Below, in pieces: positions 24,283-45,392 of a stretch of DNA of 64,000 nucleotides. The DNA comes from Legionella cardiaca (lineage in GTDB: Bacteria; Pseudomonadota; Gammaproteobacteria; Legionellales; Legionellaceae). The notes under the pieces are model-generated. The model did no database searches, was not told the DNA's origin, and saw only the letters and a program-made list of their open reading frames with translations. The first letter of the stretch is position 1; the number at the start of each line of letters is the position of its first letter. The stretch covers positions 2,971,001 through 3,035,000 of the forward strand of contig NZ_CP119078.1 of the NCBI RefSeq assembly GCF_029026145.1, given 5' to 3'. Both the position numbers and the translations under genes were made by a program.

Positions 24283-25323
24283 TTATAAAAGCGAATTTAA
24301 ATCAAAACTGGAACGTTGACCTAAATCATCACCGTGTTTCTTTAAAAAATTTTCTGCTGTACTGCGACCCTCATCACGCAACATGCATAGGAATGACCAT
24401 TCGCCGTTAAGCTTGGAAGAAAAACCTAATGTTTGCATTTTGTCACTTGCTATTCGATGAATACGCATCTTTGCCCAGCGCTCACCTTCGCCCTTAACTG
24501 AACTGGCGACTTGTCTCAGTACGGCAATCATTCGTAACTCTTTCATCAAGGTTGCATTAAATGCAACTTCATTAAGACGATTTAGAATATCACGTGCACT
24601 CTTAGGAGTCCCGGGACGTTCAATCGGATTTATCTGCACTAATAAAGTATCACTTGACTCACACTCCTTGACTAGCGGCGTAATAGTTGGGTTACCACTG
24701 TAGCCTCCATCCCAATAAGCTTCACCCTCTATTTCAATTGCTTGAAATAGAGTTGGCAGGCAGGCAGAGGCAAGCAATACATCGGGTGTTATTTCTGCAT
24801 TTCTGAAAACTCTTCCACGTCCAGTCCTGACATTTGTAGCTGTGATAAATAATTTTATCGGGGCTTTTGTAAGCCTATCAAACTGTACACTTTCCATTAG
24901 AATGGATTGCAAGGGATTGAGGGCAATGGGATTTAAATCATAGGGAGAAAAGAGTCTTGAAAGCAAATCAAAAGCAACAAATAGTGGAGAATAATCCAAG
25001 GTCCACTTCCCCATAAGCATATCGAGAGGCCCTCGTTGAAATGGACTATAGGTGGCTGCTTGAGAAACTCGTCGCCAAAATGTTTCTAAGGCAACTCTTG
25101 CTCCCTCAGCACCTCCTGCAAGATAACCACTGGCTAATACCGCAGCATTCATTGAACCTGCCGAAGTTCCTGAGATCCCCTCAATCTGCAATGTTGGTTC
25201 TTGAAGTAAGCGATCGAGCACTCCCCAAGTGTAAGCGCCGTGAGCGCCACCTCCCTGTAAAGCCAAATCAATAAGCACCGGTTTTTCTTGGTTCTTGGCT
25301 TTGTTGGGTACTTTCTTTGGCAT
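24283..25323 (-). CDS. Patatin-like phospholipase
   Basis: 346-residue lipid acyl hydrolase. Catalytic features of the patatin family are all present: oxyanion loop GGGAHGAYTWG (about 24-34), nucleophile elbow GTSAGS (about 52-57) and the catalytic aspartate in DGGYSGNP (near residue 205). The C-terminal part has the IHRIASDK segment seen in bacterial patatins with an extra C-terminal domain. There is no signal peptide. Legionella carries many patatin-like proteins, some of them secreted effectors; this one has no obvious secretion signal. The start at 25323 is chosen over the frame to 25365 because it gives the usual short N-terminal tail. Confidence 0.88.
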   Translation of the reverse strand: MPKKVPNKAKNQEKPVLIDLALQGGGAHGAYTWGVLDRLLQEPTLQIEGISGTSAGSMNAAVLASGYLAGGAEGARVALETFWRRVSQAATYSPFQRGPLDMLMGKWTLDYSPLFVAFDLLSRLFSPYDLNPIALNPLQSILMESVQFDRLTKAPIKLFITATNVRTGRGRVFRNAEITPDVLLASACLPTLFQAIEIEGEAYWDGGYSGNPTITPLVKECESSDTLLVQINPIERPGTPKSARDILNRLNEVAFNATLMKELRMIAVLRQVASSVKGEGERWAKMRIHRIASDKMQTLGFSSKLNGEWSFLCMLRDEGRSTAENFLKKHGDDLGQRSSFDLNSLL

Positions 25324-25508
25324 GAAGTCTAATATCCCTGAAGACCTTAATAAAAATAATAGCATATTGTTTTATTGGATAGTCACAGGCTCCTACAAAC
25401 CAAAGTAACTGCAGCCTTGCTAGTTCTTCGTCGCAAATTGCCTAAATAATGCTATTCATGCGATTATTTTTTGTGCATAATTTATCTTTTTAAGTATCCT
25501 GATTAAAC

Positions 25509-26678
25509 ATGCAAGGATTGCTCATTGATGTCAGTCGGCTATTTCGTCGAGCATGCCGCCAACAATCACCTACAGGTATAGATCGCGTTTTATTGGCTTA
25601 TCTGCAACATTATAAACAACGCGCACAACTTCTCCTTCGTTTTGGACAATTTGCTTTTATCTTATCTGAGCAAGCTTCCCGACAGGCAAGTTCGTTACTT
25701 TTATCCTGGCATCCGAAGATATTTTGGCCTTTTATTGGTTTATTAATTAAAGATAGTTTTCGATCTGAGGCTAAACAATCACTAAAAAATATTATTCTTC
25801 TTAAGATAGATTACTCTGGCTTGCATTATGAAGGCCTTTACCATACTTTAAAACGCCATGGCATGAAACTTATTTTTATGGTTCATGATCTTATCCCTTT
25901 TGAAAATCCAGAGTTTTTTCCAACAACTAAAGCGCAAAAATACCAACGTATTTTGTCGTTTATAATGAACAACGCCACAGGAATTGTGACCAACTCGCAA
26001 ACAACTACAAATTCACTTATTAATCACATCCCCAATCTTAAATTACTCCCCTATCTTATTTCGGCCTCATTAGCTCCCGGCATAACTTCAAGCACTCCTC
26101 CTCGCCAGGAGCGACCAATTAAAGAGAATTATTTCCTCATCGTAGGAACTATTCAAAGACGAAAAAATCACTTATTCCTCTTAAAGCTATGGCTGAAATT
26201 AATTGAGCGACACGGGATTGATACACCCAAATTAGTGCTGATTGGTGAGCGGGGCTATCTTTGCAAGCAGACACTCGCCTTATTGGATAATTGCGACCTA
26301 ATCAAAAAATTTATCATTGAGCATCCTGCAAATGATGAAGACCTGCTCACTTATTTACATCATGCTCAAGCCCTTCTCTTGCCTAGTTTAGCCGAAGGCT
26401 ATGGCCTCCCGCTTATTGAAGCACTAAGCGCAGGAACTCCCGTTATTGCCAATAACCTGTCTGTTTTTCATGAAATTGCTGGCGACATCCCAGATTTCAT
26501 TCCTGTTCAAAATGCTCAACAATGGTTAGCTTGTATCGAAAATTATATGCTGGCGAACAGTACCCTACGTGCAATACAACTTCAACGTATAAGCCAATTT
26601 TCTATACCAAACTGGCAGACGCATTTCATAAAGGTCGAACCATTCCTGCATATGCTTCGCGCATTAGACCCTACCTAG
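25509..26678 (+). CDS. Glycosyltransferase, GT4 family
   Basis: 389-residue GT-B fold transferase. The C-terminal donor-binding domain shows YFLIVGTIQRRKNH (about 212-225) and the retaining-GT4 motif ALLLPSLAEGYGLPLIEALSAGTPVIANN (about 293-321), with the E-x7-E pair intact. The N-terminal acceptor domain is less conserved, with KLIFMVHDLIPFENPEFFP. The acceptor is unknown; context suggests a lipid- or polysaccharide-linked sugar. First gene of the 25.5-48.4 kb lipid/glycan locus, convergent with and overlapping the SDR gene by four bases. Confidence 0.9.
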   Translation: MQGLLIDVSRLFRRACRQQSPTGIDRVLLAYLQHYKQRAQLLLRFGQFAFILSEQASRQASSLLLSWHPKIFWPFIGLLIKDSFRSEAKQSLKNIILLKIDYSGLHYEGLYHTLKRHGMKLIFMVHDLIPFENPEFFPTTKAQKYQRILSFIMNNATGIVTNSQTTTNSLINHIPNLKLLPYLISASLAPGITSSTPPRQERPIKENYFLIVGTIQRRKNHLFLLKLWLKLIERHGIDTPKLVLIGERGYLCKQTLALLDNCDLIKKFIIEHPANDEDLLTYLHHAQALLLPSLAEGYGLPLIEALSAGTPVIANNLSVFHEIAGDIPDFIPVQNAQQWLACIENYMLANSTLRAIQLQRISQFSIPNWQTHFIKVEPFLHMLRALDPT

Positions 26679-27457
26679 TTTTCAATATAAGATTCATAAC
26701 GACTTAAAAAAGAATCAATTAGCGTTGCAGGCAAATAATTTGCAAATTTTGTAATTAGATACAAGCTACGAGGAAAGGCAATACAAAACTTATTTTTATC
26801 TAAACCCTGTTTAATCAGGAGAGCAGCCTTCTTACTTGATAATAACAAAGGTTTTGGACCGATTAACTTCTCTGACATTGCAGTTTTTACATAACCTGGG
26901 CAAATAACAGAGACCCTAATATCGTAACGCCAAAGCCAAGCATGCAGTGATTGGGCATAGACATAAAGAGCCGCTTTTGATGCACAATAACTTGGTGATT
27001 GCGGCAAGCCTCTTAACCCAGCCAAGGAACTCATAATGGCAATCTGCCCCTGTTTTCTATCTATCATGCAATCGATAACAGGTGTAATCGTATTGAGCGT
27101 CCCTTGCAGGTTAATCCGAAAAACTTCATCACTTTGACTTTTATTTTCAGGTTGCCAATTTTTATTTAAGGTAGAGGAGACCCCTGCATTTGCAATCGCT
27201 AAATCAATAGGCATTTGCTTATCTATTGCAACAATAAATTCTTTTAAAGTATCGGCCTCACTAATATCAATAGAATGAGTAATTACTTGAGCATTCATCT
27301 CACGGCAGGATTGAGCTACAGTTGCCAAGTTATTTTCATCTCTTGCGAGCAAGATTAAATTAACGCCTTTCTTCGCATAAGCTAAAGCCAACTGCTCCCC
27401 AATGCCGCGACTTGCACCACTAATAAGAACAGTTTTGTCGGTATTTTTTAATTGCAT
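26675..27457 (-). CDS. Short-chain dehydrogenase/reductase
   Basis: 260-residue classical SDR. The cofactor loop ISGASRGIGEQLALAYAKKG (about 12-31), the NAG motif (IANAGV), the catalytic Ser (IMSSLAGL) and YxxxK (SYCASKAAL) are intact. The C-terminal LYLITKFANYLPATLIDSFLSRY is long and amphipathic, as in membrane-associated lipid SDRs. Because it lies in a locus with an alpha-oxoamine synthase, a plausible role is reduction of the 3-keto group of the amino lipid (a 3-ketosphinganine reductase-like step); this is inference. Other acyl ketone substrates are possible. Confidence 0.85.
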   Translation of the reverse strand: MQLKNTDKTVLISGASRGIGEQLALAYAKKGVNLILLARDENNLATVAQSCREMNAQVITHSIDISEADTLKEFIVAIDKQMPIDLAIANAGVSSTLNKNWQPENKSQSDEVFRINLQGTLNTITPVIDCMIDRKQGQIAIMSSLAGLRGLPQSPSYCASKAALYVYAQSLHAWLWRYDIRVSVICPGYVKTAMSEKLIGPKPLLLSSKKAALLIKQGLDKNKFCIAFPRSLYLITKFANYLPATLIDSFLSRYESYIEN

Positions 27458-28484: not shown

Positions 28485-28554
28485 ACCTTACCTTATAGAC
28501 ATGCTCCAACTCTTTGATTAGTATCTTTTTGAAATACCTGTCTATTTGCAAACA

Positions 28555-29349
28555 ATGACTTTTCTTATTCCGCTAACCTTGATTGCCCTCCTCTTTTTCT
28601 GTTCAGAGATTGAACGTTACCGGCGAAAAGCACGATTTTTATCTTGGTATAATTTAAAAAAAAATCCCAAATCGCTAATTTCTCCGATTAATGTGCTGTA
28701 TGGTCTTATTTCCCCTAATAAACCCTTCCTGCCTCTTAATGTCTTCCCCTCGCATAATATGCTGGCAGCTAATTTTTCGCTAATTCAACAGGAAGTTCAT
28801 GCTCTATTAAAGCAAAAATTCAAATTGAAGGATTTTGGAGAAATTGAAAAATATTCAAGAAAATTAGCTAAAGAGGGATGGAAATCCTTTTTTATAAAAT
28901 GTTACCGGGATATTCTACCTGCAGCAGAAATTCAGTTGCCCAAAACCGCAGCTTTGATAAAGCAATGCCCGGAAATTAATCTGGCCATGTTATCTATTTT
29001 TGAGCCCGGAGCTACAATCAAGCCACACTATGGGCCGAGTAAATTGTGTTACCGCTATCATCTTTGCCTTTTTTGTTGTGCAACCCATAACGCCTTTATC
29101 AATGTGGATGGTCAAAATTATTTTTGGCGTGAAGGAGAAGCCATTTTGTTTGATGATACCTATCGTCATTTTGCTGCTAATCCAACACAACAGTTGCGAG
29201 TCGTGTTATTCTGTGACATTGATAGGAAACTTCCTTTTCCTTTTAATTATTTCAATAAACTCGTAATTAAATTAATTGGTAAAACAAAGGCTATTAAACG
29301 CATGAATCTGGCAGCTAATGCCTTTTACCACGCTGAAGAAACTAGTTAA
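28555..29349 (+). CDS. Aspartyl/asparaginyl beta-hydroxylase-family dioxygenase (LpxO/AspH-like)
   Basis: Fe(II)/2-oxoglutarate-dependent oxygenase of the AspH family. The 264-residue product has an N-terminal membrane anchor (about residues 2-19) and the AspH core: FEPGATIKPHYGPSKLCYRYHL with the first iron His (about residue 160), and the second in DDTYRHFAANP with the 2-oxoglutarate-binding Arg in QLRVVLFCDI. LpxO, a member of this family, hydroxylates lipid A acyl chains. In this locus hydroxylation of a fatty or amino-lipid chain is plausible. ATG at 28555 was preferred over the TTG at 28546; neither has a strong ribosome binding site. Confidence 0.85.
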   Translation: MTFLIPLTLIALLFFCSEIERYRRKARFLSWYNLKKNPKSLISPINVLYGLISPNKPFLPLNVFPSHNMLAANFSLIQQEVHALLKQKFKLKDFGEIEKYSRKLAKEGWKSFFIKCYRDILPAAEIQLPKTAALIKQCPEINLAMLSIFEPGATIKPHYGPSKLCYRYHLCLFCCATHNAFINVDGQNYFWREGEAILFDDTYRHFAANPTQQLRVVLFCDIDRKLPFPFNYFNKLVIKLIGKTKAIKRMNLAANAFYHAEETS

Positions 29350-29354
29350 TCAAT

Positions 29355-30161
29355 ATGGAAATGCAAATAAGAAAACCGAAAGAGACAACGGAATGGCTAA
29401 ACCGATTTATAATTCATCCTCTAAGTTATCGATTAGTTAGACTTCTAGAATCAACCATTGTTACCCCGAATTTTCTAAGTTTTTTTGGATTACTTTCCGC
29501 GTTCCTCGGTGGCTGTTCATTGTTATTAGCTCAAACTTCTCTAACTTATCTTTTACTTGCTATGTTTTGTTTTCTTTGTCGCATGATCTTTGATGCCGCA
29601 GATGGTCAACTTGCAAGAGCTAAAAATAAAAGCTCAACAAAAGGTACCCTAATTGATGGTCTTTGCGATTACCTAAGCGTTATTTTTCTTTATGGTGTGA
29701 TTGCTTATCTCTATTATCCACTTTACGGTTCTTTTATTTTTCTCCTCATTGCCGTAGCAGGTTACAGTAGCGCCTTGCAAGCCACTGGGTATCAATTGTA
29801 CATTGATATATATAATCATCTTAAATATGGGAAATTTGGTGCCAAGCTTGGCTTTATTATTGCTGGAGAAAACAAAAGCTTATCCTGGCTATTACGCTTA
29901 TATAACCATAATCAATTGCGCTTTTTTAATAAAGATAAGTTACTTAAAATGCTTTCCGAGAAAGTATCACTTACTAAATCACAACAATTTGAAACCATGC
30001 TACCGAGTTGGCATTTACTCGCAGGAAATTATCGTTATCTCTTGTTAGCATTATTGATTAATCATATTTGGCTATATTTTCTGATAGAAATAATTTTACT
30101 TAACCTGGCTCTTTTTTACCTAATCATTCGCTGTAATCGAGTTTTAACTTCTTTTTGCTAA
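29355..30161 (+). CDS. CDP-alcohol phosphatidyltransferase family protein
   Basis: 268-residue integral membrane enzyme that transfers a phospho-alcohol or phosphatidyl group from a CDP-linked donor. The full catalytic signature D-x2-D-G-x2-A-R-x8-G-x3-D-x3-D is present in DAADGQLARAKN...GTLIDGLCD (about residues 79-104). Several hydrophobic segments surround it. Substrates cannot be read from the sequence. It starts five bases after the hydroxylase gene, so the two probably share a transcript. Its 3' end overlaps the convergent CDP-alcohol transferase gene by 38 bases. Confidence 0.9.
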   Translation: MEMQIRKPKETTEWLNRFIIHPLSYRLVRLLESTIVTPNFLSFFGLLSAFLGGCSLLLAQTSLTYLLLAMFCFLCRMIFDAADGQLARAKNKSSTKGTLIDGLCDYLSVIFLYGVIAYLYYPLYGSFIFLLIAVAGYSSALQATGYQLYIDIYNHLKYGKFGAKLGFIIAGENKSLSWLLRLYNHNQLRFFNKDKLLKMLSEKVSLTKSQQFETMLPSWHLLAGNYRYLLLALLINHIWLYFLIEIILLNLALFYLIIRCNRVLTSFC

Positions 30162-31245
30162 TTTGTTTTAATTGAAAAGCCTGCCCTAAACGTAGATATT
30201 GAATTAACACTGAAATAATTGTCCAGTAATAAACTGCATAAAAACCTGCAACAGGGTATCCAGCGATATAACTTAACGTTAGCAATAAGAAATTTGTATT
30301 TCTTCTTGCCATAACCAAGCGAAAGCGTGCATCAAATTTCTGCCATAAAAACATTTTTATGCCCATAACAGCTTTAAAAAATAATTCCGCTAGGCGCCCA
30401 AGGATATAAAAAATAACAATGACATAAAATAAATTTAAAATTTCAGAAAACTGAACCTGATAATATTTACTAAGGGCTATCCCCCAAGCCAAATACCAAA
30501 ATGGCGGATGAATTAGATCCATTCCGTGATCAAAATAGTCCCCGAACTTTGAACTTGTTACGGTCAAGCGCGCTAATTTTCCATCCACGGTATCTAATAT
30601 CATCATTAGCCAGGCACAACCAAGACCAAGAACGAAATGGTTTTTCATAATTAATAAAGGTGACAGTGTACAAAAAATCAAACTAAAAAAAGTCACCGTA
30701 TTTGGCTTGATGCGATACTTAGCGAGAACACGGGTTATATAGAATGCCAAGTGATACCAAAAATATTTGGTACATAGATCCGTCACACCTTTGTATGTCG
30801 AACGATATAATTTTTTCTCAACTATAGGGATATTTTCACATTCTAACTTTTGAATAAGAGGATTTCCCTTTTTTAATTGTTTTGCAAAGAAAACCAGAGG
30901 AATATCGTGAGCTGGGATTTTTATTAAATGATTATCTTCATCAGTAATTTTTTGCTTTTTTATAGAAGCTTTTACAATCTTGATATCAGAAGTAATACAA
31001 GCAAGAGCCACATCGCCATCCATGATTTGAGTATCAGTCAGACCACGTAAATAAGACAAAAAATGCTCATCAAATACTGCGTTAATGTCAAGTATTATAG
31101 TAGGTGAGTCTGTTTCGGTTAGCGTTGCTGCATTAACCATAGTTAAATGATTCGCTGCTGCTAATTTTATAATTCGCTCTCTTGCTTTAAGTCCAAAAAC
31201 ACGATGGCTACATTCGCCGATTAAGACACATTGCATAGGGGACAT
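30124..31245 (-). CDS. CDP-alcohol phosphatidyltransferase with N-terminal NTP-transferase-like domain
   Basis: 373 residues in two parts. The N-terminal ~150 residues (VLIGECSHRVFGLKARERI, IILDINAVFDEHFLSYL) look like a degenerate nucleotidyltransferase-type domain. The C-terminal part is a membrane CDP-alcohol phosphatidyltransferase with the complete signature DTVDGKLARLTV...GDYFDHGMD (about 215-243). This layout resembles the bifunctional inositol-phosphate cytidylyltransferase/DIPP-synthase type, where the active cytidylyltransferase is fused; here it is the separate gene immediately upstream (stop and start two bases apart). It probably uses the CDP-alcohol made by that partner. Confidence 0.85.
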   Translation of the reverse strand: MSPMQCVLIGECSHRVFGLKARERIIKLAAANHLTMVNAATLTETDSPTIILDINAVFDEHFLSYLRGLTDTQIMDGDVALACITSDIKIVKASIKKQKITDEDNHLIKIPAHDIPLVFFAKQLKKGNPLIQKLECENIPIVEKKLYRSTYKGVTDLCTKYFWYHLAFYITRVLAKYRIKPNTVTFFSLIFCTLSPLLIMKNHFVLGLGCAWLMMILDTVDGKLARLTVTSSKFGDYFDHGMDLIHPPFWYLAWGIALSKYYQVQFSEILNLFYVIVIFYILGRLAELFFKAVMGIKMFLWQKFDARFRLVMARRNTNFLLLTLSYIAGYPVAGFYAVYYWTIISVLIQYLRLGQAFQLKQISKKKLKLDYSE

Positions 31246-31246
31246 T

Positions 31247-32023
31247 TTAATTGACTTCCAGACTATACCGAGACTGTTTGATTATTGGCTGAGGCCAGTT
31301 TTTAGTAAACTCTATTGCGATTGTTAAATCCTTAGGATAATCAATTTCGCACCAGGCTCGCTCAGGCGTACGAACCAATAATATCTTTTCTTTTCGCGCA
31401 AGACTATCAATGGCTTTTAAATACCAATTCTGTCTATTTGCCGATGTTGTCAGTAATTCACATATTTCCTGATAAAAAAGCTTCGCCCCTTGTGCACTTA
31501 AGAAAATCATTCCTACCGATTCACCATCAATAAATTCTGCTGAAATCGTTTTTCCTATCTTGGCAAGATAATTTCCTTTCTTTGTAATTTTCATATCATC
31601 TTCATCGTAAATTGCCTTTACATCATACAAAAGATTAATATCTTGTTTGGCCGATGAGATAAGCTGCTCTACTAATTGCGGATGAAACAAAACATCGCCA
31701 TTTACGAGAATGCATTCATTCTGGTACTGCTTAAGAAAGGTTAAGCAACTAACAATATTTTCGGCGCAAGCATAATCTTGATTAAAAAGAACTTCATAGC
31801 GAATTTGCGGGTGCGCCAATTGGTAACGACGCAAGGTCCTCTCAATGTCTTCATGCATAAAACCTGTGACAACAATAAAATCCATGATATCAGCTTGCAT
31901 GAATTGCCATAATTGCCATTCCAGTATGGTCATATTATTTATATTCAATAAAGCTTTAGGTTTATGGCTGGTATAAGGAAATAATCGAGAACCGTGCCCT
32001 GCAGCTAGAATCACTGCTTTCAT
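31247..32023 (-). CDS. Nucleotidyltransferase, LicC/inositol-phosphate cytidylyltransferase-like
   Basis: 258-residue NTP transferase that activates a phosphorylated sugar or alcohol. It has the N-terminal signature VILAAGHGSRLFPYTSHKPKAL (about 4-25), metal-binding VNGDVLFHP (about 102-110) and the IGKTI...DGESVGMIFL segment and CEIDYPKDL (about 236-244) typical of cytidylyltransferases for phosphocholine or inositol phosphate rather than of hexose-1-phosphate enzymes. It is coupled to the downstream CDP-alcohol transferase, which fits a CTP-dependent enzyme supplying CDP-X. The identity of X is unknown. Confidence 0.87.
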   Translation of the reverse strand: MKAVILAAGHGSRLFPYTSHKPKALLNINNMTILEWQLWQFMQADIMDFIVVTGFMHEDIERTLRRYQLAHPQIRYEVLFNQDYACAENIVSCLTFLKQYQNECILVNGDVLFHPQLVEQLISSAKQDINLLYDVKAIYDEDDMKITKKGNYLAKIGKTISAEFIDGESVGMIFLSAQGAKLFYQEICELLTTSANRQNWYLKAIDSLARKEKILLVRTPERAWCEIDYPKDLTIAIEFTKNWPQPIIKQSRYSLEVN

Positions 32024-32075: not shown

Positions 32076-33572
32076 TTAATTTGTAATAGTGGCATCCATA
32101 GTCATTAAGTTATGCAGCGTCTTAGCCAATAATCTTAGATCATCCTGCGAATGCGAATAATTGACAAAAATCCTTAATCGAGAAGCTTCATTTGCGACAG
32201 CAGGAGGAAAGATTGCCTGAGTATAAATTTGTCTTTTACGCAGAGCCACACATAACCGTATAGTCTCATTCATATCTCCGATCAGAATGGGGATGATGGG
32301 AGTATAAAAACTTAAACCTGTATCAATAGCAGATTTTTTTAATTCATTACCTAGGAAACTTGCTAATTCTTGTAATCTTTTAACTCGATGCGAACTGTGT
32401 TTAAGTTTTTTTAACGAAGTTAATGCTGCAGCCGTATCAGCAGGAGATAAACCGCAACTATAAACAAAGCCTGGCGTCGTATATTTTAAGTAATTAATTA
32501 AACTTTCATTCCCGGCAATGTACCCTCCACAGGAAGCAATTGCTTTACTGAGGGTACCCATCCAGATATCGACATCAGCACGATTAATAGCAAAATACTC
32601 TCCTATCCCTGCACCTGATTCGCCAAGCACGCCTAAAGAATGGGCTTCATCCACATAGATTAGAAAATCAAATTTTTGCTTTAGCTTAATGTAGTCATTT
32701 AAAGGTGGGACATCACCATCCATGCTGAAAATGCCTTCTGTCACTACAAGCGTTTTTACGAATTTGCCGCTTGTTGCTTTTAATATTTTTTCCAGGCTAT
32801 GCGTATCATTGTGTTTGTAAAACTTCATAGCAGCACCTGATAATCGTGCGCCTTGTACCAAACTATTATGACTTAATTCATCCAAGATAATTAAATCATT
32901 ACTATCCATAAGATGACCAATTGTTGTTACATTGGTTAAATACCCTGAATTAAAAACCAAAGCATCTTCTGTATTCAAAAAATTGGCAATTGCTTCTTCA
33001 AGCTGGCTATGAATAGGCTTCTGTCCTCCTACCAAACGACTGGCCGAAACTGAGGTGCCATACTGTTTTATTGCCTCTATCGCGTCATTCATAACCTCTT
33101 GGTCATTGGCGAAAGCCAGGTAATTATAAGAAGAAAAATTCAGGTAAGTTTGTCCCTCTATAGAAGTATGCTGATTAAATTGGCCCTCATTTTCACAAAA
33201 ATAAAGATCTATACCCGCTGCTTCTTTAACTTTTTGCTCCAAATTTACTAACTCTTTAATCTGAGGAAATGATGCTAAAAAATTCATTTCACCCTCTTTC
33301 CCAGGATTTTGTTTTTGTATATTGCTAATTTTCTTTTTAGTTTTCTTATAGAGAAAATTGGTTATTTCATGAACGTTTTTTAAATTAACAAAGGTTGCAT
33401 AGTCTATTTTTATGCCAAGCCAATCTTCTAATTCCCCACAAATTGTAATAGCTTGTAATGAGCCTAAACCATAATGAGCAACATTGGTGTGCGTATTTAT
33501 TTTCGCAGGAATTATTTTAAGTTCCTGAGAAATTTTATTGATAATCCAGTTTTCTATATTGGCTTTATTCAT
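32076..33572 (-). CDS. Acyl carrier domain fused to alpha-oxoamine synthase
   Basis: 498-residue fusion. Residues ~1-75 form an acyl carrier domain; the phosphopantetheine serine is in GLGSLQAI (Ser38), where the common Asp is replaced by Gly. Residues ~95-498 are a PLP enzyme of the 8-amino-7-oxononanoate synthase / serine palmitoyltransferase / KBL family, with VDEAHSLGVLGESGAG and the PLP-lysine motif MGTLSKAIASCGGYIAG (Lys343). These enzymes condense an amino acid with an acyl thioester, releasing CO2, to give a 3-keto (alpha-oxo) amine. The ATG at 33572 lies ten bases after the stop of the acyl-AMP ligase gene, which presumably loads the ACP. The GTG frame from 33641 lies within that gene and is rejected. 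Confidence 0.9.
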   Translation of the reverse strand: MNKANIENWIINKISQELKIIPAKINTHTNVAHYGLGSLQAITICGELEDWLGIKIDYATFVNLKNVHEITNFLYKKTKKKISNIQKQNPGKEGEMNFLASFPQIKELVNLEQKVKEAAGIDLYFCENEGQFNQHTSIEGQTYLNFSSYNYLAFANDQEVMNDAIEAIKQYGTSVSASRLVGGQKPIHSQLEEAIANFLNTEDALVFNSGYLTNVTTIGHLMDSNDLIILDELSHNSLVQGARLSGAAMKFYKHNDTHSLEKILKATSGKFVKTLVVTEGIFSMDGDVPPLNDYIKLKQKFDFLIYVDEAHSLGVLGESGAGIGEYFAINRADVDIWMGTLSKAIASCGGYIAGNESLINYLKYTTPGFVYSCGLSPADTAAALTSLKKLKHSSHRVKRLQELASFLGNELKKSAIDTGLSFYTPIIPILIGDMNETIRLCVALRKRQIYTQAIFPPAVANEASRLRIFVNYSHSQDDLRLLAKTLHNLMTMDATITN

Positions 33573-33582
33573 GAGTTCAGGC

Positions 33583-35355
33583 TCACAATTCAAACAGACA
33601 CGAAATTCGGCCATTAACATAGTATTCTCTACACTGAGCACGTTTTATTTTGCCACTCGTTGTTTTCGGAATTGTTTTTGCAGGTACGAGTAAAACTTTT
33701 TTAATAGTAATTAAATGCTTTTCTCTAATAATTTCATGCACTTTTTGGCTTAATTCTAAAGAGTTTAGTTGAGAAGATTTTTTATGTTCGACTAACATAA
33801 TTACATTTTCACAATCATCTTCATTCACTGCAAAAGCGGCGATACTACCAATATCTGTGCTAAAAAACTCTTCTCTTACAGATAATTCAAGATCTTGAGG
33901 ATAATGATTTAATCCATTAATAATAATCAGATCTTTTATTCTTCCCGTAATAAATAATTCATCCTGATATTTAAATCCTAAATCACCGGTACGCACATAG
34001 GTACGGTGCTCCTGAGCGTTTTTTATTCTTGCATTTAATTGGCTTTGGGAATCTTCTGAATTACGCCAATAGGCAGTTGCTGCATTCGGACCATGAAACC
34101 AAATCTCACCAACATGCCCATCAGGCATTATTTCCTGCGAATCAGGATTTACAATTTGGACATGGGCATTAGGCGAGCAAAAACCGACACTTACCAAGCG
34201 CTTCCCTTCATGTTCACTTTTATGGATTTCAGCTATCCCTTCTTCTATTAATTTTTTCTTATTGAAATTTTTATAATAAGCAGTTGCATTTAGTCGAACT
34301 CCACACACATAAACAACTGATTCAGCCAACCCATAGCAAGGAATAAAAATATTTTCCTTTAAAGAATAACGTGCAAATTTATTATAAAAAATTGGAAACG
34401 TTGAGGAGTGAACAGTTTCTGCGCCACAAAATGCAATGCGCCAACTTGCCAAATTTAAATCTTTGATCCCTTCTAATTTGATTTTGTTGCTACATAATCT
34501 AAAACTAAAGTCCGGACCACCAGCAACAGTTCCTTGATAATCAGAGATTGCTTTTAACCACATTAATGGCTTTTGTAAGAAGTTTATTGGCGATAAATGT
34601 ATCGATTTTATTCCGACAAATAAGGGAATAAAAATACCTGAAATCAAGCCCATATCATGATAAGGGGGCAGCCAGGTCACTACAACATCAGAGCGTGTAA
34701 ATTTGTAATCCTGTACTAATTGCTGCAAGTTAGCCATTAAATTTTGATGCGTTATTACAACGCCTTTAGGTTTACTGGTTGATCCGGAGGTATATTGTAA
34801 ATAAGCGATATCCTTGTCACAAAGCCGTTCTTCCTTATACTGGGCGACGAGTTGATCGCTTATTTTTGCAGAAGTAAGTATCTTTAACTGGTTTAATTGG
34901 GTAGAAGCTTCCAGAATATTTTCTTTTGTTTTATTTTTTATTAACGGTTTTATCAGAGATAATAAGGGCGTTAATACCTTTAGCTTACGTAAACTTGCAC
35001 TAATTTTTTGGCTAGTTAAAACAATTTTTGCATCAGCATTATCAATGATTTTTTTTAATGTAGTTGCCATTTCATCCGTTATTGGAGGGTAGGCAGGTAC
35101 AGCAATTACCCCAGCATATAAACACCCGAATAGTGCAAAAATATACTCACAGCTTGGCTCATAGAGCAAAACGGCCGTTTTTTGTTTTATTTGATACTTC
35201 TGTAATTTTGCGGCAATTTTTTTGGCCTGATGATCAAGTTCAACCGGGGTAATGATCTTTACCGTTTCATCGTTTTCAATAAAACGATAAAGCTCCAAAG
35301 CAGGCTGAGTTTTACATAAATCTTTTAGAATCTGCGTGATGGTAGCTATTGCCAT
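33583..35355 (-). CDS. Fatty acyl-AMP ligase (FAAL)
   Basis: 590-residue adenylating enzyme that activates a fatty acid and passes it to an acyl carrier protein rather than CoA. FAAL hallmarks are AVPAYPP near residue 86, P-loop YTSGSTSKPKGVVITH (about 188-203), WLPPYHDMGLISGIFIPLF, the FAAL-type QKPLMWLKAISDYQGTVAGGPDFSFRLC segment, and IKDLIIINGLNHYPQDLE near the C-terminus. The ATG overlaps the stop of the upstream GNAT-like gene (TAATG), and the ACP-oxoamine synthase follows ten bases later, so the three are translationally coupled. Its expected partner is the fused ACP. Confidence 0.93.
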   Translation of the reverse strand: MAIATITQILKDLCKTQPALELYRFIENDETVKIITPVELDHQAKKIAAKLQKYQIKQKTAVLLYEPSCEYIFALFGCLYAGVIAVPAYPPITDEMATTLKKIIDNADAKIVLTSQKISASLRKLKVLTPLLSLIKPLIKNKTKENILEASTQLNQLKILTSAKISDQLVAQYKEERLCDKDIAYLQYTSGSTSKPKGVVITHQNLMANLQQLVQDYKFTRSDVVVTWLPPYHDMGLISGIFIPLFVGIKSIHLSPINFLQKPLMWLKAISDYQGTVAGGPDFSFRLCSNKIKLEGIKDLNLASWRIAFCGAETVHSSTFPIFYNKFARYSLKENIFIPCYGLAESVVYVCGVRLNATAYYKNFNKKKLIEEGIAEIHKSEHEGKRLVSVGFCSPNAHVQIVNPDSQEIMPDGHVGEIWFHGPNAATAYWRNSEDSQSQLNARIKNAQEHRTYVRTGDLGFKYQDELFITGRIKDLIIINGLNHYPQDLELSVREEFFSTDIGSIAAFAVNEDDCENVIMLVEHKKSSQLNSLELSQKVHEIIREKHLITIKKVLLVPAKTIPKTTSGKIKRAQCREYYVNGRISCLFEL

Positions 35356-36503
35356 TAACCCATGTCCCTGTTAACTAGCGTTTTTTGATACATACGGTAT
35401 GTCTTATATTGGCTAGCACCAATATGCTTTAAGCCAAAATGCATAGAACGGTTATCTTCCAATATCCATGAACATTCGGTATCAGAAATATTTAAATTTC
35501 TACCCAGTTCGCCAAATTTTGCATAGAGCAAAATGCCTAACTGTAAATGACGAAATTTCTTACGGATTCCTAATAATGGAATACGACCACCCCGAGAATG
35601 CTTCGGTCTTTTAATATACTGTAATAATTTGATAAATCCTGTGGGAAATAATTTGCCATTACGAACGTGCAACAAGGCTTCATTGATATCAGGTAGGAAT
35701 ATTCCAAAAGCCGCAGGCTCGCCAGCGACAGTAATCATCAATGCCATCTCCGGAATAATAAGGGGTTTCATTTCCTGCGCAAGAGAATCAACTTCCGCTT
35801 TGGTCATAGGAACAAACCCCCAATTCTCTCTCCATGCATCATTATAAATATCAAGAAAAATTTCTATTTCACGACGATAATTCTTCATATTAATACTGCG
35901 GATTTGAATATCTGCAGAATTAGACAGTTTGTTGTAAACAGTCTTTAATTTGGTATGTAAATTAAATGTCTGCGGATTAATTAACCAGGCATACATATCC
36001 GTGACTTTATCATAACCCAGTGCTTCTACCAGCTGGGGATAATAGGAAGGATTTTGGGTCATCATAATATAGGGCTTGGTATCAAAAGCTGATACTTGCA
36101 TACCACATTCATAATTAATTGATGGGTTTGCAGGGCCACGCAAACTGTGAACTTTTTTTTGATGGGCCCATTCTTCAACAGCTGCAAATAGGGCACGAGC
36201 AGTCTCTATATTGCTTTCTGTTTCAAAAAAACCCCAGAAAGCTATCTGTTCATTATGAAATTGATTATGGGCATGATTTATTATACCGGCGATACGCCCA
36301 ACGGGTTGATTATTGCGGTAAGCAAGCCAAAGCGTTAATTCTGCTTGTTTATAAAAAGGGTGTTTGCGAGTATTAAGAATTTTTTTTACCGCACCCCGAA
36401 GTGGGGGTACCCAGTTGGAATCCTTAGCATGCAACATCCATGGTAATTGAATAAAATCGCGTTTTTGAGTTAAGGTCGAAACTTGAACAACAGTAAAACT
36501 CAT
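35355..36503 (-). CDS. GNAT-superfamily acyltransferase, candidate ceramide-synthase-like N-acyltransferase
   Basis: 382-residue protein of a GNAT-related family. Recognisable segments are FIQLPWMLHAKDSNWVPPLR (about 17-36), QAELTLWLAYRNNQPVGRIAGIINHAHN and the diagnostic LRGPANPSINYECGMQVSAFDTKPYIMMTQNPSYYPQL. This family is found next to serine-palmitoyltransferase-like genes in several Gram-negative bacteria, and I recall the Caulobacter bacterial ceramide synthase as belonging to a similar GNAT-like family; equivalence is inference. A likely job is N-acylation of the amino lipid. First gene of the minus-strand three-gene operon. No signal peptide; probably membrane-peripheral. Confidence 0.75.
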   Translation of the reverse strand: MSFTVVQVSTLTQKRDFIQLPWMLHAKDSNWVPPLRGAVKKILNTRKHPFYKQAELTLWLAYRNNQPVGRIAGIINHAHNQFHNEQIAFWGFFETESNIETARALFAAVEEWAHQKKVHSLRGPANPSINYECGMQVSAFDTKPYIMMTQNPSYYPQLVEALGYDKVTDMYAWLINPQTFNLHTKLKTVYNKLSNSADIQIRSINMKNYRREIEIFLDIYNDAWRENWGFVPMTKAEVDSLAQEMKPLIIPEMALMITVAGEPAAFGIFLPDINEALLHVRNGKLFPTGFIKLLQYIKRPKHSRGGRIPLLGIRKKFRHLQLGILLYAKFGELGRNLNISDTECSWILEDNRSMHFGLKHIGASQYKTYRMYQKTLVNRDMG

Positions 36504-36855: not shown

Positions 36856-37665
36856 ATGCCAAATACTCACCCGAAAGAAATATTCGCAAGCTTATGGCGG
36901 CACCGTGATTTGACATACCAACTCATCAAGCGCGATATATTAAATAAATATCGCGGCTCATTTATGGGATTATTATGGGTAATCCTCTCTCCACTTTTGA
37001 TGCTCGGACTTTATACCTTCACTTTTGGGATTATTTTACGTGCACGCTGGCCGGGCGTTACTGACAGTTTGATGTATGCATTACTCGTTTATGTTGGTCT
37101 GAGCATTTTTAACTTTTTTTCTGAATGTCTCAACAGAGCTCCCAATTTAATTGTAAGTAACCCCAATCTTGTAAAGAAAATAATTTTTCCTTTAGAAATT
37201 TATCCTTGGGTAATTATTGGCTCTGCTGGTTTTTTTGCAATAATCAATAGCTTAATTTTATGTTTTTTTTGCTTCCTAAAACTAGGAACAATTCATTTTG
37301 GGATTCTTCTTCTCCCTCTCTTATATTTGCCGCTAATCTTTCTAACTCTTGGCTTATGTTGGTTTTTATGTTCAGCAGGTGTTTATTTCAGAGATATTTC
37401 TCATATGATGGGTTTTATTTTACAAATTATCATGTATCTCTCTCCTATTTTTTATTCAACACTTAATTTACCTCCCGCTCTGCAAAAATTTCTATTTATC
37501 AGTCCATTGACGTATATTATTGAACAAGCAAGAGGCATTATTATTTTTGGCAATGCCTTCAACTGGTCTAGTTTTATAGTTTATTGTTGTATCGGTCTTG
37601 GCTTTGCGGTGCTTGGCTTTGTCTGGTTTCAAAAAACAAGAGATGGATTTGCAGATGTGTTGTGA
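36856..37665 (+). CDS. wzm: ABC-2 type polysaccharide/lipid export permease (Wzm/TagG-like)
   Basis: 269-residue inner-membrane permease with about six hydrophobic segments. The N-terminal interfacial segment YQLIKRDILNKYRGSFMGLLWVILSPLLMLGLYTFTFGIILRARW is characteristic of O-antigen/teichoic-acid ABC exporters, as is the C-terminal ISPLTYIIEQARGIIIFG. It forms the transporter with the Wzt-like ATPase encoded seven bases downstream, flipping an undecaprenyl-linked or lipid-linked glycan to the periplasm. Confidence 0.93.
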   Translation: MPNTHPKEIFASLWRHRDLTYQLIKRDILNKYRGSFMGLLWVILSPLLMLGLYTFTFGIILRARWPGVTDSLMYALLVYVGLSIFNFFSECLNRAPNLIVSNPNLVKKIIFPLEIYPWVIIGSAGFFAIINSLILCFFCFLKLGTIHFGILLLPLLYLPLIFLTLGLCWFLCSAGVYFRDISHMMGFILQIIMYLSPIFYSTLNLPPALQKFLFISPLTYIIEQARGIIIFGNAFNWSSFIVYCCIGLGFAVLGFVWFQKTRDGFADVL

Positions 37666-37672
37666 GCTATAA

Positions 37673-38944
37673 ATGGATATCGTGATTAAAGCAGAAAATT
37701 TGGGTAAAGCTTTTAAAATATATGCTAATTCTACAGATCGCTTAAAGCATTATCTTAAAAAAACCACAAAAAATTCCGCAAAAGAGTTCTGGGCACTACA
37801 TAATCTTTCTTTTGACATTAAAAAAGGAGAAACTGTTGGAGTTCTCGGCTGCAACGGCAGTGGCAAAAGTACTCTCCTTCAATTGATTGCTGCAATTCTT
37901 AAACCCAGCACAGGTACTATCGACGTAAAAGGACGTGTATCGGCGTTATTGGAATTGGGCTCAGGTTTCAATCTTGAGTTTACTGGTAGAGAAAATATTT
38001 ATTTCAATGCCACACTCCTTGGTCTATCAAAAAAAGAAATTGATAACAAATATAATGAGATAGTCAAGTTTGCAGAGATCGGCGAGTTTATCGAGCAACC
38101 AGTAAAAACCTATTCCAGTGGTATGTTGGTGCGCCTAGCTTTTTCGGTAATGATTCATGTTTCTCCTGATATTTTAATCATTGATGAAGCCTTGGCTGTC
38201 GGTGATATTTTTTTTCAACAAAAATGTATACGCTTTTTAAAAGAAAATTTTGCTGATAAAACAAAGATTTTTGTGGCGCATGAACTCAGCACCATTTCTT
38301 CGCTTTGCAGCCGAGTTTTATGTCTTCATAATGGCAGCTTAACCTTTGATGGCGATGTCGCTGAAGGGATAGAACATTACCTTCACACTTCTTTTTCTAA
38401 AAATAGACAGGCATCACCCACCTCAGCTCATCCATCAGAAATTAATTGGACTAAGCTTACCGATGACAAACTTAGTGGAAAACTAGAGGTTAAAATTAAT
38501 GGCATACAAATTCTAATCAATAATCATCCAGCACCATCAGCAAAGGCAACTATTCGCCATCAAGACAGAGTAATCATTAAGTTATTAGTTTATTCCACCA
38601 AATCAGAAGTAAATGCCATTTTTGGCTATTTATTATGTGATAAATACGGCAATTTTGTATTTGGGCAAAACAGTTGCAACAATCAAACTGTCCATTTATT
38701 AAAAAACCCTGGATATTATGTAATAGATTATCATTTTATATGGCCTGATATTCATCAAGGAGTTTATACACTGATTGCAGGAATTGGTGAGGGTGAGCAT
38801 GCGCTATCTCATGATATACAATGTTGGGCACAAGGTGCTTTTGTTTTTGAATGCATTTCACCTCATGCCGTACACGGCATATTTAATAACCCCATAGTAT
38901 CTTTTAATGTTGAATCCCTGGAAACCGCTTTGCTAGAAGAATAA
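37673..38944 (+). CDS. wzt: ABC exporter ATPase with C-terminal glycan-binding domain (Wzt-like)
   Basis: 423 residues. The ATPase domain has Walker A GCNGSGKSTLL (about 58-68), signature YSSGMLVRLAFSV (about 146-158), Walker B ILIIDEALAVGD (about 165-176) and switch HELST. From about residue 245 a separate beta-rich domain follows, as in Wzt proteins that recognise a modified, non-reducing glycan terminus before export. This suggests the exported chain carries a terminal cap, which fits the methyltransferase domain of the next gene. Coupled with wzm; the next gene starts 15 bases later. Confidence 0.93.
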   Translation: MDIVIKAENLGKAFKIYANSTDRLKHYLKKTTKNSAKEFWALHNLSFDIKKGETVGVLGCNGSGKSTLLQLIAAILKPSTGTIDVKGRVSALLELGSGFNLEFTGRENIYFNATLLGLSKKEIDNKYNEIVKFAEIGEFIEQPVKTYSSGMLVRLAFSVMIHVSPDILIIDEALAVGDIFFQQKCIRFLKENFADKTKIFVAHELSTISSLCSRVLCLHNGSLTFDGDVAEGIEHYLHTSFSKNRQASPTSAHPSEINWTKLTDDKLSGKLEVKINGIQILINNHPAPSAKATIRHQDRVIIKLLVYSTKSEVNAIFGYLLCDKYGNFVFGQNSCNNQTVHLLKNPGYYVIDYHFIWPDIHQGVYTLIAGIGEGEHALSHDIQCWAQGAFVFECISPHAVHGIFNNPIVSFNVESLETALLEE

Positions 38945-38959
38945 AAAGGACAGAAGGTC

Positions 38960-41900
38960 ATGCAAATTAACCCATCGGAATTGAATCACTCCATGCATCA
39001 AATTCTTCGCGAGGCTTATGAGGCAATTACCCAGGGAAAAGTTAAATTGCTATCCCTTGATGTATTTGACACACTCCTATTCAGGAAATGCAGTAAGCCA
39101 TCCGATATTTTTCTTTATCAATATAATTTATTAAGCGCAAAACAATTGATTCCTTTAACAATTGAAGCCAATGAATGGCGACAATTGCGCGAAACTGCTG
39201 AAAAAGAGGCAAGGAAAACTGTCGACAATTCCTGCAGTGAAGTCACTTTAGAAGAAATTTATAGCCAGCTACCTAAAGCCATGATAGCAAACACTTCACT
39301 GCAAGATCTCATAAGAACCGAACTTGAAGCCGAGGAAGCCTTAATTGCAACCGACCCTTATCTATTGCAATTAATTAGGTATGCGGCAAGTAAAAATATT
39401 CCTTATATTTGTGTCTCAGATAATTATTTAAATAAGGAACAACTGACTCAATTAATCCAGACAGCCCTTAGGAAAAATAATATTATCATTCCCCTGCCTC
39501 AAGCTGTTTTTGTGTCTGCTGAATTTAAAGAGTCGAAAGCCAGCCAACTTTTTCCTTTAGTTTTAGAACAAGTAACTTTTGCAGCCAATGAAATTTTACA
39601 TATTGGTGATAATTTGCAAGCAGATGGTAACGCCGCCAAATATGGCATGAAAACTATTCACTACGCATCATCTTATGAATGGCAAAGAGAAATAGAAAAA
39701 TTAGAAGGGGAACTCCAATCACAGCTGACAGAAACGACGTCTCTTTCTTTAGGCGAGGGTTGGCAACATTTACGTAGAAAAGTCGCTAATTTTTATAGTC
39801 AAGGGGAATCAATCAATGATTACAGGGCCTATGGCGCCTTTGTGTATGGCCCTCTTTTTTATGGCTATAGTTCTTGGTGCTTACAAAAAGTAAAACAACT
39901 AGGCATAAAGAAAATCTTTTGTTTTACTCGAGAATCCCATTTACTCGTTCCTTTACTCCAGGAAGTAGCCCAAATCGATGCACAAATCGAAGCCTATCCT
40001 CTGGCGATTTCACGGTATTTTGCCAATTTAATTGCCATCAATAAAGTGAATGTATCGTCACTTTTAGGATTATTCTCAGGGACAAGCATTAGAGGTGACG
40101 ATTTTTTTAATATCTTAGGTCTTTATAACGAAAAGGTTAACCTTCCTGTAGAAAATGAAGAATGGCTTAGCCAAGACAAAGTTAAAAATTTATTACAACT
40201 AATTATTAACAATGAGGATGCGGTTAAAACCATTACTGCATTCATTGAGCAGCAACAAGAAGAATTTTATAACTACTTAACAAACATTGGTTTCATACAA
40301 GAGGAATCGGTAGCCATCTGCGACCTGGGTGGAAACGGCACAATCCAAAAAGCATTAAGAAAATTTTTAAGACACAAACAGATTGCACTCCACATGACAG
40401 GTTTGTATCTTGCAACTACAGCCAATGCACTACAACTACTTTCTGAATTTGATACGGTTTACAGTTATCTAATCCAATTTGGCAGCCCTGAGAGATTGGC
40501 AGTATCTTTTTTTCGTTCTCCCGAGTTGCTTGAAAACATCACTATGCCTGCTCATGGTAGTTTAAAAAACATAGAAAATCGGCAACCCATTTTTTCTTCT
40601 TCACTACTGACTGTGTCACAAATAAAGCAAGCTGCTGCCATGCAGCACGGTATATTGTCGTTTACCCAATTGGCCACGCAATATTTTGGCGATAGGGAAA
40701 ATCATGCTCTCTGGTCGTCTAAACGGAACAATACTTTACGCAGTGATCGCGACATCAATCTCCAACTTTTGATTCGTTCCGTGATATCACCTACTCTTTT
40801 TGAACTCAATTTATTTCGCGAATGGCAGCACGAATATGGGCTAGGAACTAATCAAACGCGACATCTCATTCCCAACAAACAATGGCTTCTTGAGAATGTA
40901 GGGCATAAACCGCTCCCCTTGCTAATAGAGGGTCATAACATGCATCAAGTCTATTGGCTAGCTGCAGCCTTAACCGATATAGGAGGTGAAAGCTTACGCG
41001 ATCTATTTAAATTTGCACAATTAGAAAAAATAGCCACACCGGCCCTGGAGAATGTATATCTAAATTATGAGTCTAATCTGTACACTAAACTGGCTAGTTT
41101 GGAGAAACAATTACCAAGAAATAATTCCACACTCTATGATGTGCAGCCCTACTTACTACACAGTCTTAAGAATTTTAAAGAACTAATTCTTCGTATTCTT
41201 AACCATGCTCAAGTAAAAACGATTGTAGTCATTGGCGTAGAGGCCGGCCATTTTTTAAAGGAATTATGCCATTATGCTGTTACTGTGAATGGGAAAGTTA
41301 TCGCTATTGACCCTACTTTAAGCGATGAATTTATTGGCCAATTTACAACTGATTTTACCAAGTATTTCGAAGCATTTCGTGGCACAAGTAAATTTTTCTT
41401 TGCAACTAACCAAGGCAATAGGTCTTGGGGGACCACCGCTTTTTTGGTGGATGGCGATCATAATTTTGCGACAGTAAGCTTTGAACTAGAGGCAATCAAC
41501 AATTTTTATCTTAAAAATAAAACCTTGCCGCTTATTTTTCTGCACGATACAGGATGGCCCTTCGGACATCGAGACTTAAATTATACACAGGGGGTCGCTC
41601 CTTTAAATTATACGCAAGCACAAGCCACTGTGGGTCTTGGTGTTGGTTTAGAGCATCCCATTCCCTATAAAGGAAGCAATTTTGCCATTTGCGATGCAAG
41701 TCTGGCACTTCGAGAGGGTGGTGAGGAAAACGGGGTTATGGCAGCTATTGAGGCTTTTATACAAACTTATGAAGACTATACAACCTGGCACGTTCCCCTT
41801 ATTTTTGGTTTAAACATTATTATTCCTAAATCCCTGACTTCTTACAATGAAATAGCTAACTGGATAATCCCCTGGACCTCGGGACTTTTGGCAAACATCG

Positions 41901-44204: not shown

Positions 44205-45392
44205 ATGGAAAGTACCATGAATTATTTACCTAATCGACAACAGCATATCAATCTGCTTCGGATTGCTTTTATTATGTTAATCAGTAGTAGGAAAAAATTT
44301 ATTGGTATGCTTATCGGCGCCACCTTCGCTACTTTCATCGTCACCCAACAACCAAGTATTTATCAAGGCGTGACAGAGCGATTGACAAAAAAAATTCGCT
44401 TATTAGGTAATGAAATTGATTTATGGGTGATGAGTGAATCATCGTTTAGTTTTGAGCATCCTACCAACTTCACCCCCATGGATATTTATCGTATTCGCAG
44501 TATTCCAGGAATACTTGAGGTTACTCCTTTGTATGTAAATTGGCTACACATCCAACACTTGCCAACTAAAAGCACCAAAGTTTGGCAAATAATCGGGGTG
44601 GATCCAGACAGTTTAATCGGCTTGCCCAGAACGATGAGCCAAGGTGAGCGTCTTAGTATTCGTCACACCAATGCAATGATCGTGGATGGTTATAGCTTGC
44701 AGCAATTTGAAACAAAAAATAAACACACACTGGCCATTGGCGATAAAATGGTTCAAGGACAAAATGCCTGGATCATTTCTGGTGTTACCAAACCCATACG
44801 GACTTATTCTCATACACCGGTTGCCTACATTAGTAGCAATCATCTTCCTAATATCATTCACACACCTTCCTTCCTTTTAATCAAGATAAAGCCCTCTTTT
44901 GATAGAATACAAGTTGCTAACAATATTCAAAAAATAACTGGATACAGTGCCTTTACTCCTGCACAATTTATTGAACGTTCTAATAAATTCTTTCGTGAAA
45001 AAACACCCATTGTTATCAGCTTTATTTCGGTGGCAGTTTTAGGCTTTATTATTGGATTAATCATTATGTGGCAAATCTTTAATGATTTCATCATCACTCA
45101 TAATCATCAATATGGCATGTTAAAAATGCTAGGTGTTGGTAATTTCTTGTTAATAAAGATTGTTCTTTTTCAAGCTGCGGTTGTTGGGATTCTGGGATAT
45201 TTACTGGGGCTTATGTTGACAGCGCTTTTTGGTTTTGTTTTTCATGATACGACCGTTGCATTTCATTTAACCTGGCAAATCAGTTTACTGGGAGCAATAG
45301 GTGCAATAGTTATTATTATTTTTTCATCTTTGCTGAGTCTTCTACGAGTCATTCGCCTGGATACAATAGATTTATGTCGCAATTTAATTTAA
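44205..45392 (+). CDS. FtsX-like ABC permease, DevC/MacB type
   Basis: 395-residue permease with one N-terminal transmembrane helix (about 33-52), a large periplasmic domain (about 60-265) with IDLWVMSESSFSFEHP and VTPLYVNWLHI, and three C-terminal helices (about 270-295, 320-345, 360-385). The layout and the periplasmic-domain pattern match DevC-type permeases of tripartite glycolipid exporters better than the longer, ATPase-fused MacB. It starts four bases after the giant protein gene and overlaps the ATPase gene by 19 bases, so the export genes are in the same transcript as the glycan-assembly genes. Confidence 0.87.
   Translation: MESTMNYLPNRQQHINLLRIAFIMLISSRKKFIGMLIGATFATFIVTQQPSIYQGVTERLTKKIRLLGNEIDLWVMSESSFSFEHPTNFTPMDIYRIRSIPGILEVTPLYVNWLHIQHLPTKSTKVWQIIGVDPDSLIGLPRTMSQGERLSIRHTNAMIVDGYSLQQFETKNKHTLAIGDKMVQGQNAWIISGVTKPIRTYSHTPVAYISSNHLPNIIHTPSFLLIKIKPSFDRIQVANNIQKITGYSAFTPAQFIERSNKFFREKTPIVISFISVAVLGFIIGLIIMWQIFNDFIITHNHQYGMLKMLGVGNFLLIKIVLFQAAVVGILGYLLGLMLTALFGFVFHDTTVAFHLTWQISLLGAIGAIVIIIFSSLLSLLRVIRLDTIDLCRNLI

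Follow-up and report, generated by a model that had tools for sequence, protein, structure and literature searches.

The window analysed here, a stretch of 64,000 nucleotides of Legionella cardiaca DNA (G000:C1:2971001-3035000, within a genome of 3.48 Mb), carries a probable operon that, together with a nearby gene for a short-chain dehydrogenase/reductase (SDR), probably encodes a hybrid ceramide pathway. In this pathway, an alpha-oxoamine synthase (AOS) and an SDR of the type linked to polyketide synthases (PKS) would be fed by a fatty acyl-AMP ligase (FAAL) and an acyl carrier protein (ACP), and the resulting base would be acylated by a ceramide synthase (CerS) of the proteobacterial type. 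We put the probability of this reading at about 0.8. It rests on homology, intact catalytic motifs, family placement, conserved linkage, and co-occurrence, and the substrates, products, step order, head group, and transport given below are predictions drawn from these.

Three reading frames on the minus strand, all open and intact, make up the core. The gene at 35355-36503 (382 aa) encodes a CerS homologue of the YghO family, a predicted N-acyltransferase acting on a long-chain base; the gene at 33583-35355 (590 aa) encodes the FAAL, which would charge an ACP with free fatty acid; and the gene at 32076-33641 (521 aa) encodes an ACP fused to an AOS, the predicted 3-ketosphinganine synthase. An earlier note on this DNA had proposed that the three genes are translationally coupled, and the coordinates bear this out. 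The stop codon of the CerS gene overlaps the FAAL start by 1 nt (TAATG), and the spacing between the FAAL and ACP-AOS genes depends on the start codon, with an overlap of 59, 38, or 32 nt for the GTG or the two upstream ATGs and a gap of 10 nt for Met24. Genes for a nucleotidyltransferase (NTase, 31247-32023) and a CDP-alcohol phosphotransferase (30124-31245), assigned by Pfam and predicted to make a CDP-activated head group and to transfer it, follow downstream on the same strand at gaps of 52 and 1 nt. Judged by this spacing, the probable operon therefore comprises five genes and runs down to 30124. The three-gene set is not a chance arrangement, since it recurs across the Legionellaceae. 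The G+C content of the five genes (34-38%) is mildly lower than that of the 64-kb window (38%) and of ubiE-B and gidA-parB (40-44%), which is not decisive as a sign of recent transfer.

The first protein is confirmed as a homologue of the CerS/YghO family, which gives its predicted function. It matches YghO of E. coli BL21 over its full length (32% identity over 379 aa, E 2e-67), a Nitrosomonas homologue at 40% over 364 aa, and a homologue in genome G058 at 32%; no Pfam or NCBIfam family (E<=0.001) and no PDB entry matched the window protein. The relationships were examined in an alignment of 10 sequences and a tree of 53 rows. In the tree, the 13 Legionellaceae sequences, that of the window included, form a clade with the sequence of genome G230 (support 100/99), and E. 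coli YghO and the G058 sequence fall in a separate clade (99/98), the deepest joins being weak. The protein, called a GNAT-like acyltransferase in the earlier note, thus has full-length YghO homology and a tree placement that set it apart from unrelated GNATs. PMC9386255 and PMC11324152 name YghO and CC_1154 as the N-acyltransferases predicted to form ceramide in the canonical pathway. The neighbours of the CerS homologue in G058 include a FAAL-like gene, a gene homologous to CerR (38% identity to E. coli CerR), a small open reading frame (ORF) at the position of acpR, and an spt gene, for serine palmitoyltransferase (SPT), whose product passes the NF047599 cut-off (528 vs. 500 bits).

The third protein consists of an ACP at residues ~24-105 and an AOS at residues ~133-515 (Pfam PP-binding and Aminotran_1_2). 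The ACP serine and the pyridoxal phosphate (PLP) lysine, previously noted as intact at Ser38 and Lys343, are indeed so; these numbers count from Met24 (33572), a possible start, and correspond to Ser61 and Lys366 if translation begins at the GTG at 33641. The PLP lysine, HxS, and DExH motifs of the AOS are intact, and the ACP serine is conserved in 10 aligned rows. The AOS is 43% identical to an AOS of a PKS-AOS cluster on a Pseudomonas plasmid (L113), 36% to ThAOS, 33% to the SPT of Sphingobacterium, 31% to that of E. coli, and 29-31% to BioF and Kbl. In a first tree of 53 rows, it groups with PKS-coupled and FAAL-coupled AOS with a support of 100/99. A second tree, computed with a mixture model, dropped the long-branched AOS of L018 and L004, which were kept in the first, and added the plasmid AOS; here the window protein lies in a 37-row ingroup with the PKS-coupled AOS (100/100), and its grouping with canonical SPT is rejected (p-AU 4e-46). 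The AOS trees leave out locus L090, which duplicates the contig of L009. As identities of the synthase, canonical SPT, BioF, Kbl, and LqsA were each considered and rejected by the trees and model scores.

The AOS thus falls in a clade of PKS-coupled synthases, the type of the published SgaB, a link drawn through PKS-AOS relatives. SgaB is reported to have SPT activity, making 3-ketosphinganines from serine, which it strongly prefers over alanine and glycine (PMC12134224). The Pseudomonas plasmid cluster holds a PKS, an AOS, and then, five genes on, an SDR, a spacing that equals that of sgaA, sgaB, and their SDR by published locus tags (same source). No PKS adjoins the window AOS; a FAAL stands in that place. 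With regard to the earlier note, a ceramide-like pathway is supported by the YghO homology of the acyltransferase and by the placement of the synthase apart from BioF, Kbl, and LqsA, with the product still a prediction. The parallel drawn there with SPT plus ceramide synthase stands on the side of CerS; on the other side, the AOS is of the PKS-coupled lineage and not a canonical SPT.

The second protein carries the Pfam domains AMP-binding and AMP-dom_DIP2-like and is, by its matches, closer to FAALs than to CoA ligases, with predicted loading of an ACP. Its best PDB matches are the FAALs 7r7e-g and 3kxw (365-376 bits), and the first CoA ligase, a malonyl-CoA synthetase, scores 86 bits. No NCBIfam FAAL cut-off is reached (e.g., 412/775 bits for PRK05850 and 368/600 for PRK09192). 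FAAL loading had been taken to set this route apart from bacterial sphingolipid synthesis, a claim that did not hold up. AasR of E. coli BL21 matches the fatty acyl-adenylate ligase 3pbk over 562/562 residues, and the loading of a dedicated ACP by a FAAL is therefore not new; PMC9386255 likewise describes a dedicated ACP loaded by FAAL-type AasR in the canonical proteobacterial pathway. As a candidate novelty, it was rejected, being a feature common with that pathway.

The SDR encoded at 26675-27457 on the minus strand is the likely ketone reductase (predicted, SgaC/KDSR-like), because close copies occur in 12/13 CerS carriers and in 0/127 other genomes. This survey covered 140 Legionellaceae genomes, and because these are related, the p-values describe association only. 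At E<=1e-80, Fisher's test gave p 2e-16, and with a weaker match in G083 included (12/13 vs. 1/127) p 2e-15; at most 18 first-look candidates were scored per genome, beyond which a close SDR would be missed. The sole carrier without a close SDR is G086, a genome 74% complete. In locus L020, the SDR lies between the FAAL and CerS genes, and the window SDR and that of the Pseudomonas plasmid cluster are 37% identical over 235 aa. Elsewhere, an AOS of the window clade stands beside CerS in two cases. In locus L016 (titled Proteobacteria bacterium), AOS, CerS, and an SDR 43% identical to that of the window lie within 6 kb; G230, a genome of another family of the class, has a CerR-like epimerase gene (29% identity to E. 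coli CerR) directly before its FAAL-AOS gene. The latter fits a shared ketone-reduction step that may be filled by different enzymes. A Lipid_DES domain (sphingolipid Delta4-desaturase) was found in 4/140 genomes, all CerS carriers, and adjoins the SDR in all four; such desaturases were not found in 14 control genomes. These four (L091 5656-6594, L146, L147, and L152) are fatty acid desaturases in which this domain is N-terminal.

Across the family, the AOS was found in 42/140 genomes (E<=1e-55) and CerS in 18/140 (E<=1e-10), 13 of them close; in the Fisher tests, only the close ones count as CerS, and the five distant CerS-like matches (23-24% identity, E 8e-22 to 5e-18) do not. In 13 of the 14 CerS loci compared, an AOS lies within 4.5 kb of CerS, the 14th (L121) being a 3.6-kb contig without AOS. 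Among the 13 contiguous CerS loci, FAAL and AOS form one chain of 1,060-1,117 aa in 10, with the ACP serine motif seen in 9/10, and are split in the window, G003, and G008. The ACP-synthase fusion was thus rightly named earlier as a difference from the canonical pathway, being present in the window and extended to one FAAL-AOS chain in most relatives. As a separate observation, G008 carries both a FAAL-AOS locus with CerS and one without CerS nearby. In a class-wide sample of 369 genomes, CerS was found in 24 (E<=1e-20) and this AOS in 16 (E<=1e-70); the combination looks rare outside the family because both were found only in the genome studied here and in G230.

The following sequence of steps can be proposed. 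The FAAL would adenylate a free fatty acid and load it onto the fused ACP, and the AOS would condense the acyl-ACP with serine to 3-ketosphinganine. The SDR would reduce the ketone before or after N-acylation, and the CerS/YghO homologue would N-acylate the base to dihydroceramide. The NTase and a CDP-alcohol phosphotransferase would then add a phospho head group, and a tripartite exporter may carry the lipid outward. The earlier idea of a self-contained route at 32076-36503 falls short, since the likely ketone reductase and the head-group genes lie outside that interval.

The canonical 'Rhodobacterial' pathway consists of aasR-cerR-acpR-spt plus cerS (Caulobacter CC_1165-1162 and CC_1154; the yghO cluster of E. 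coli BL21). It has in common with the Legionella genes the FAAL-type acyl-ACP synthetase, the dedicated ACP, a PLP-dependent AOS, the CerS/YghO N-acyltransferase, and a CDP-alcohol phosphotransferase, here homologous to a Nitrosomonas gene in the CC_1159 position. In contrast, the ACP in Legionella is fused to an AOS of another clade, an SDR replaces the CerR epimerase-type reductase, CerS belongs to a separate subclade, and the gene order is CerS-FAAL-ACP/AOS-NTase-CDP-alcohol phosphotransferase. The SgaABC cluster of Pseudomonas fluorescens MYb115, which makes sphinganine, comprises a PKS, an AOS with SPT activity, and an SDR. Judged via L113, whose LtaS-type and capsule-type neighbours recur in L020, the Legionella genes have the PKS-coupled AOS clade and an SDR relative in common with SgaABC; unlike SgaABC, they have FAAL-ACP instead of a PKS as the acyl source and an added CerS homologue. 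With the Bacteroidetes/eukaryotic SPT route, they share the AOS superfamily and an SDR-type reductase; that route uses acyl-CoA (PMC11324152), and the Bacteroidetes AOS falls outside the window AOS clade in the trees. What sets the predicted pathway apart is that its ACP is fused, with FAAL and AOS in one chain in most relatives, and that its AOS is of the PKS-coupled lineage; the enzymes are known bacterial ones in a newly seen combination. The pathway is a variation on bacterial ceramide synthesis and no new category.

Ceramides and hexosylceramides were reported in L. gormanii, where standard mapping found no SPT, and two AOS genes received generic annotations of the Kbl or BioF type (PMC9146996). 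The present gene set is a strong candidate for the genes behind these lipids. No description of the pathway in Legionella was found among the matches listed in open-licence PubMed Central text. With the CerS homologue, FAAL-ACP-AOS, SDR, and sometimes a desaturase-type gene as a defined set, the origin of Legionella ceramides becomes testable. The data also suggest two separate SPT-like lineages as the sources from which bacterial ceramide synthesis was assembled, and the one-chain FAAL-AOS would dedicate free fatty acids to the making of sphingoid bases. Ceramide-type lipids are of the kind used by human and amoeba cells, and whether intracellular bacteria produce ceramide on their own matters because the hosts signal with it.

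The NTase has as its best solved relative the CTP:phosphocholine cytidylyltransferase 1jyk (E 5e-11, residues 1-115 only), and its homologues include one in G003 (53%) and one near the G058 ceramide synthase (31%). The CDP-alcohol phosphotransferase shares 34% identity over 364 aa with a Nitrosomonas protein (L013 12170-13408) whose gene neighbours, namely CerS, NTase, two LptF/G, and a DAGK-type kinase, are in the Caulobacter order around CC_1159. CC_1159 is required for CPG2 in Caulobacter (PMC11324152), and ccna_01217/CpgA, which we equate with CC_1159 by gene numbering, is proposed to use CDP-glycerate (PMC13228409). Within the 140 genomes, the NTase is found in two (E<=1e-20) and this phosphotransferase in its own genome only (E<=1e-15). 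Relatives carry other head-group candidates, including EptA-type (L009) and LtaS/sulfatase-type (L020, L092) genes, as well as a PAP2_3-type and a small CDP-alcohol enzyme (found by similarity in eight loci, each confirmed by Pfam in two). Because the pair is nearly private and relatives carry these other candidates, the head group probably differs between species. A further, more specific reading is tentative and rather unlikely, that the Legionellaceae hold a further, separately assembled ceramide pathway around FAAL-ACP-SPT (one chain in most carriers), in which here a LicC-like cytidylyltransferase and a CDP-alcohol:ceramide phosphotransferase would yield a sphingomyelin-like or other phosphoceramide from a CDP-activated head group. 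If true, the bacterium would own a host-like sphingolipid.

The tentative lipid exporter is encoded by four plus-strand genes at 44205-48365 for an FtsX-type permease, an ATPase, an adaptor, and an outer-membrane factor. It is weakly similar to DevBCA, which exports heterocyst glycolipids, with model scores below the cut-off (DevC 56/290 bits, DevB 41/129 bits). At E<=1e-90, the permease occurs in 12/13 CerS carriers vs. 5/127 other genomes, four distant matches (E 2e-40 to 2e-37) not being counted. Four of these five have an AOS locus beside an ORF of 2,100-2,550 aa (a PKS by Pfam in L067), and the fifth has FAAL and ACP-AOS.

Several points weigh against the hybrid ceramide pathway. The AOS falls below every SPT model cut-off (271/500 bits for NF047599, 205/670 for NF047603, 309/640 for NF047600), its top single model is BioF (377/426 bits, also below cut-off), and no solved SPT is closer to it than ThAOS. 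The link to SgaB runs through PKS-AOS relatives rather than the SgaB sequence itself, and serine specificity is not readable from the AOS sequence, serine being a predicted substrate. For the SDR, a member of a very large family, the matches in NCBIfam and the PDB are generic. The lipidomics link to L. gormanii is indirect, the head-group pair is almost confined to this one genome, and one CerS carrier (G008) has no close exporter. Moreover, an AOS match is present in 30/127 genomes without a close CerS, and ten fetched family loci (L058-L066, L093) hold FAAL and this AOS, split or fused, with no CerS nearby; for these two reasons, FAAL-AOS alone does not imply ceramide.

AOS enzymes vary in their amino-acid use, and this, with the low SPT scores, would accommodate a synthase that takes alanine or glycine instead of serine and gives a 1-deoxyceramide-type lipid, on which no C1 head group is possible. 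This appears improbable in view of the serine preference of SgaB, and the linkage of CDP-alcohol, PAP2, and sulfatase/LtaS-type genes suggests a C1 hydroxyl. The product might instead be a secreted N-acyl aminoketone or a sphinganine-like natural product in the PKS-AOS style, with the acyltransferase acting on another amine and no membrane ceramide formed. The nearest AOS relatives beyond the FAAL-linked ones are PKS-coupled, an exporter is linked, and there are the 30 family genomes with an AOS match and no close CerS; however, the full-length CerS homology, the tight CerS-SDR co-occurrence, and the presence in these clusters of head-group genes and of genes of the sphingolipid-desaturase type make this distinctly improbable. 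A sulfonolipid (capnine-type) pathway, with the AOS using cysteate, seems very improbable. The genome does encode a ComA-type phosphosulfolactate synthase beside an AOS, but that AOS is a different one, far off in the genome, and no sulfonate-related family was found among the window proteins scanned, a subset of the total.

Other genes near the operon may belong to the cluster. A second CDP-alcohol phosphotransferase by Pfam (29355-30161, plus strand), a possible head-group enzyme, has a 53% homologue in G003 on a contig with NTase and SDR homologues; to the small CDP-alcohol enzyme of L091 there is a short match only (39% over 72 aa). An LpxO/OlsC-like Asp/Arg hydroxylase (28546-29349, plus strand), whose model scores are below cut-offs, is a possible acyl-chain hydroxylase and a tentative member, with a 61% homologue on the contig of G003 that carries the SDR. 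A GT4-type glycosyltransferase (25509-26678, plus strand), assigned by Pfam, is likewise a tentative member, its family recurring in 9/16 stretches compared, window included.

Some further observations concern genes elsewhere. In the same genome, another AOS (L004 9-3473; G000:C1 ~1303340-1306800) follows an acyltransferase-ACP (PKS-like) ORF and precedes the ComA-type gene (Pfam E 2e-85), a locus that is possibly a sulfonolipid or other PKS-AOS cluster. G145, G155, and G159 (L127, L126, and L124) each have a diverged copy of the exporter permease and, ~25-33 kb away, a diverged CerS-like gene (23-24% identity), which perhaps mark a further lipid cluster. At 36856-44200 of the window, divergent from the operon, a Wzm/Wzt-type ABC transporter and a 1746-aa multidomain glycosyltransferase are probable polysaccharide export genes, found in the same order in G003 (L019). 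The ORF at 24283-25365 looks patatin-like, judging by a motif in its sequence.

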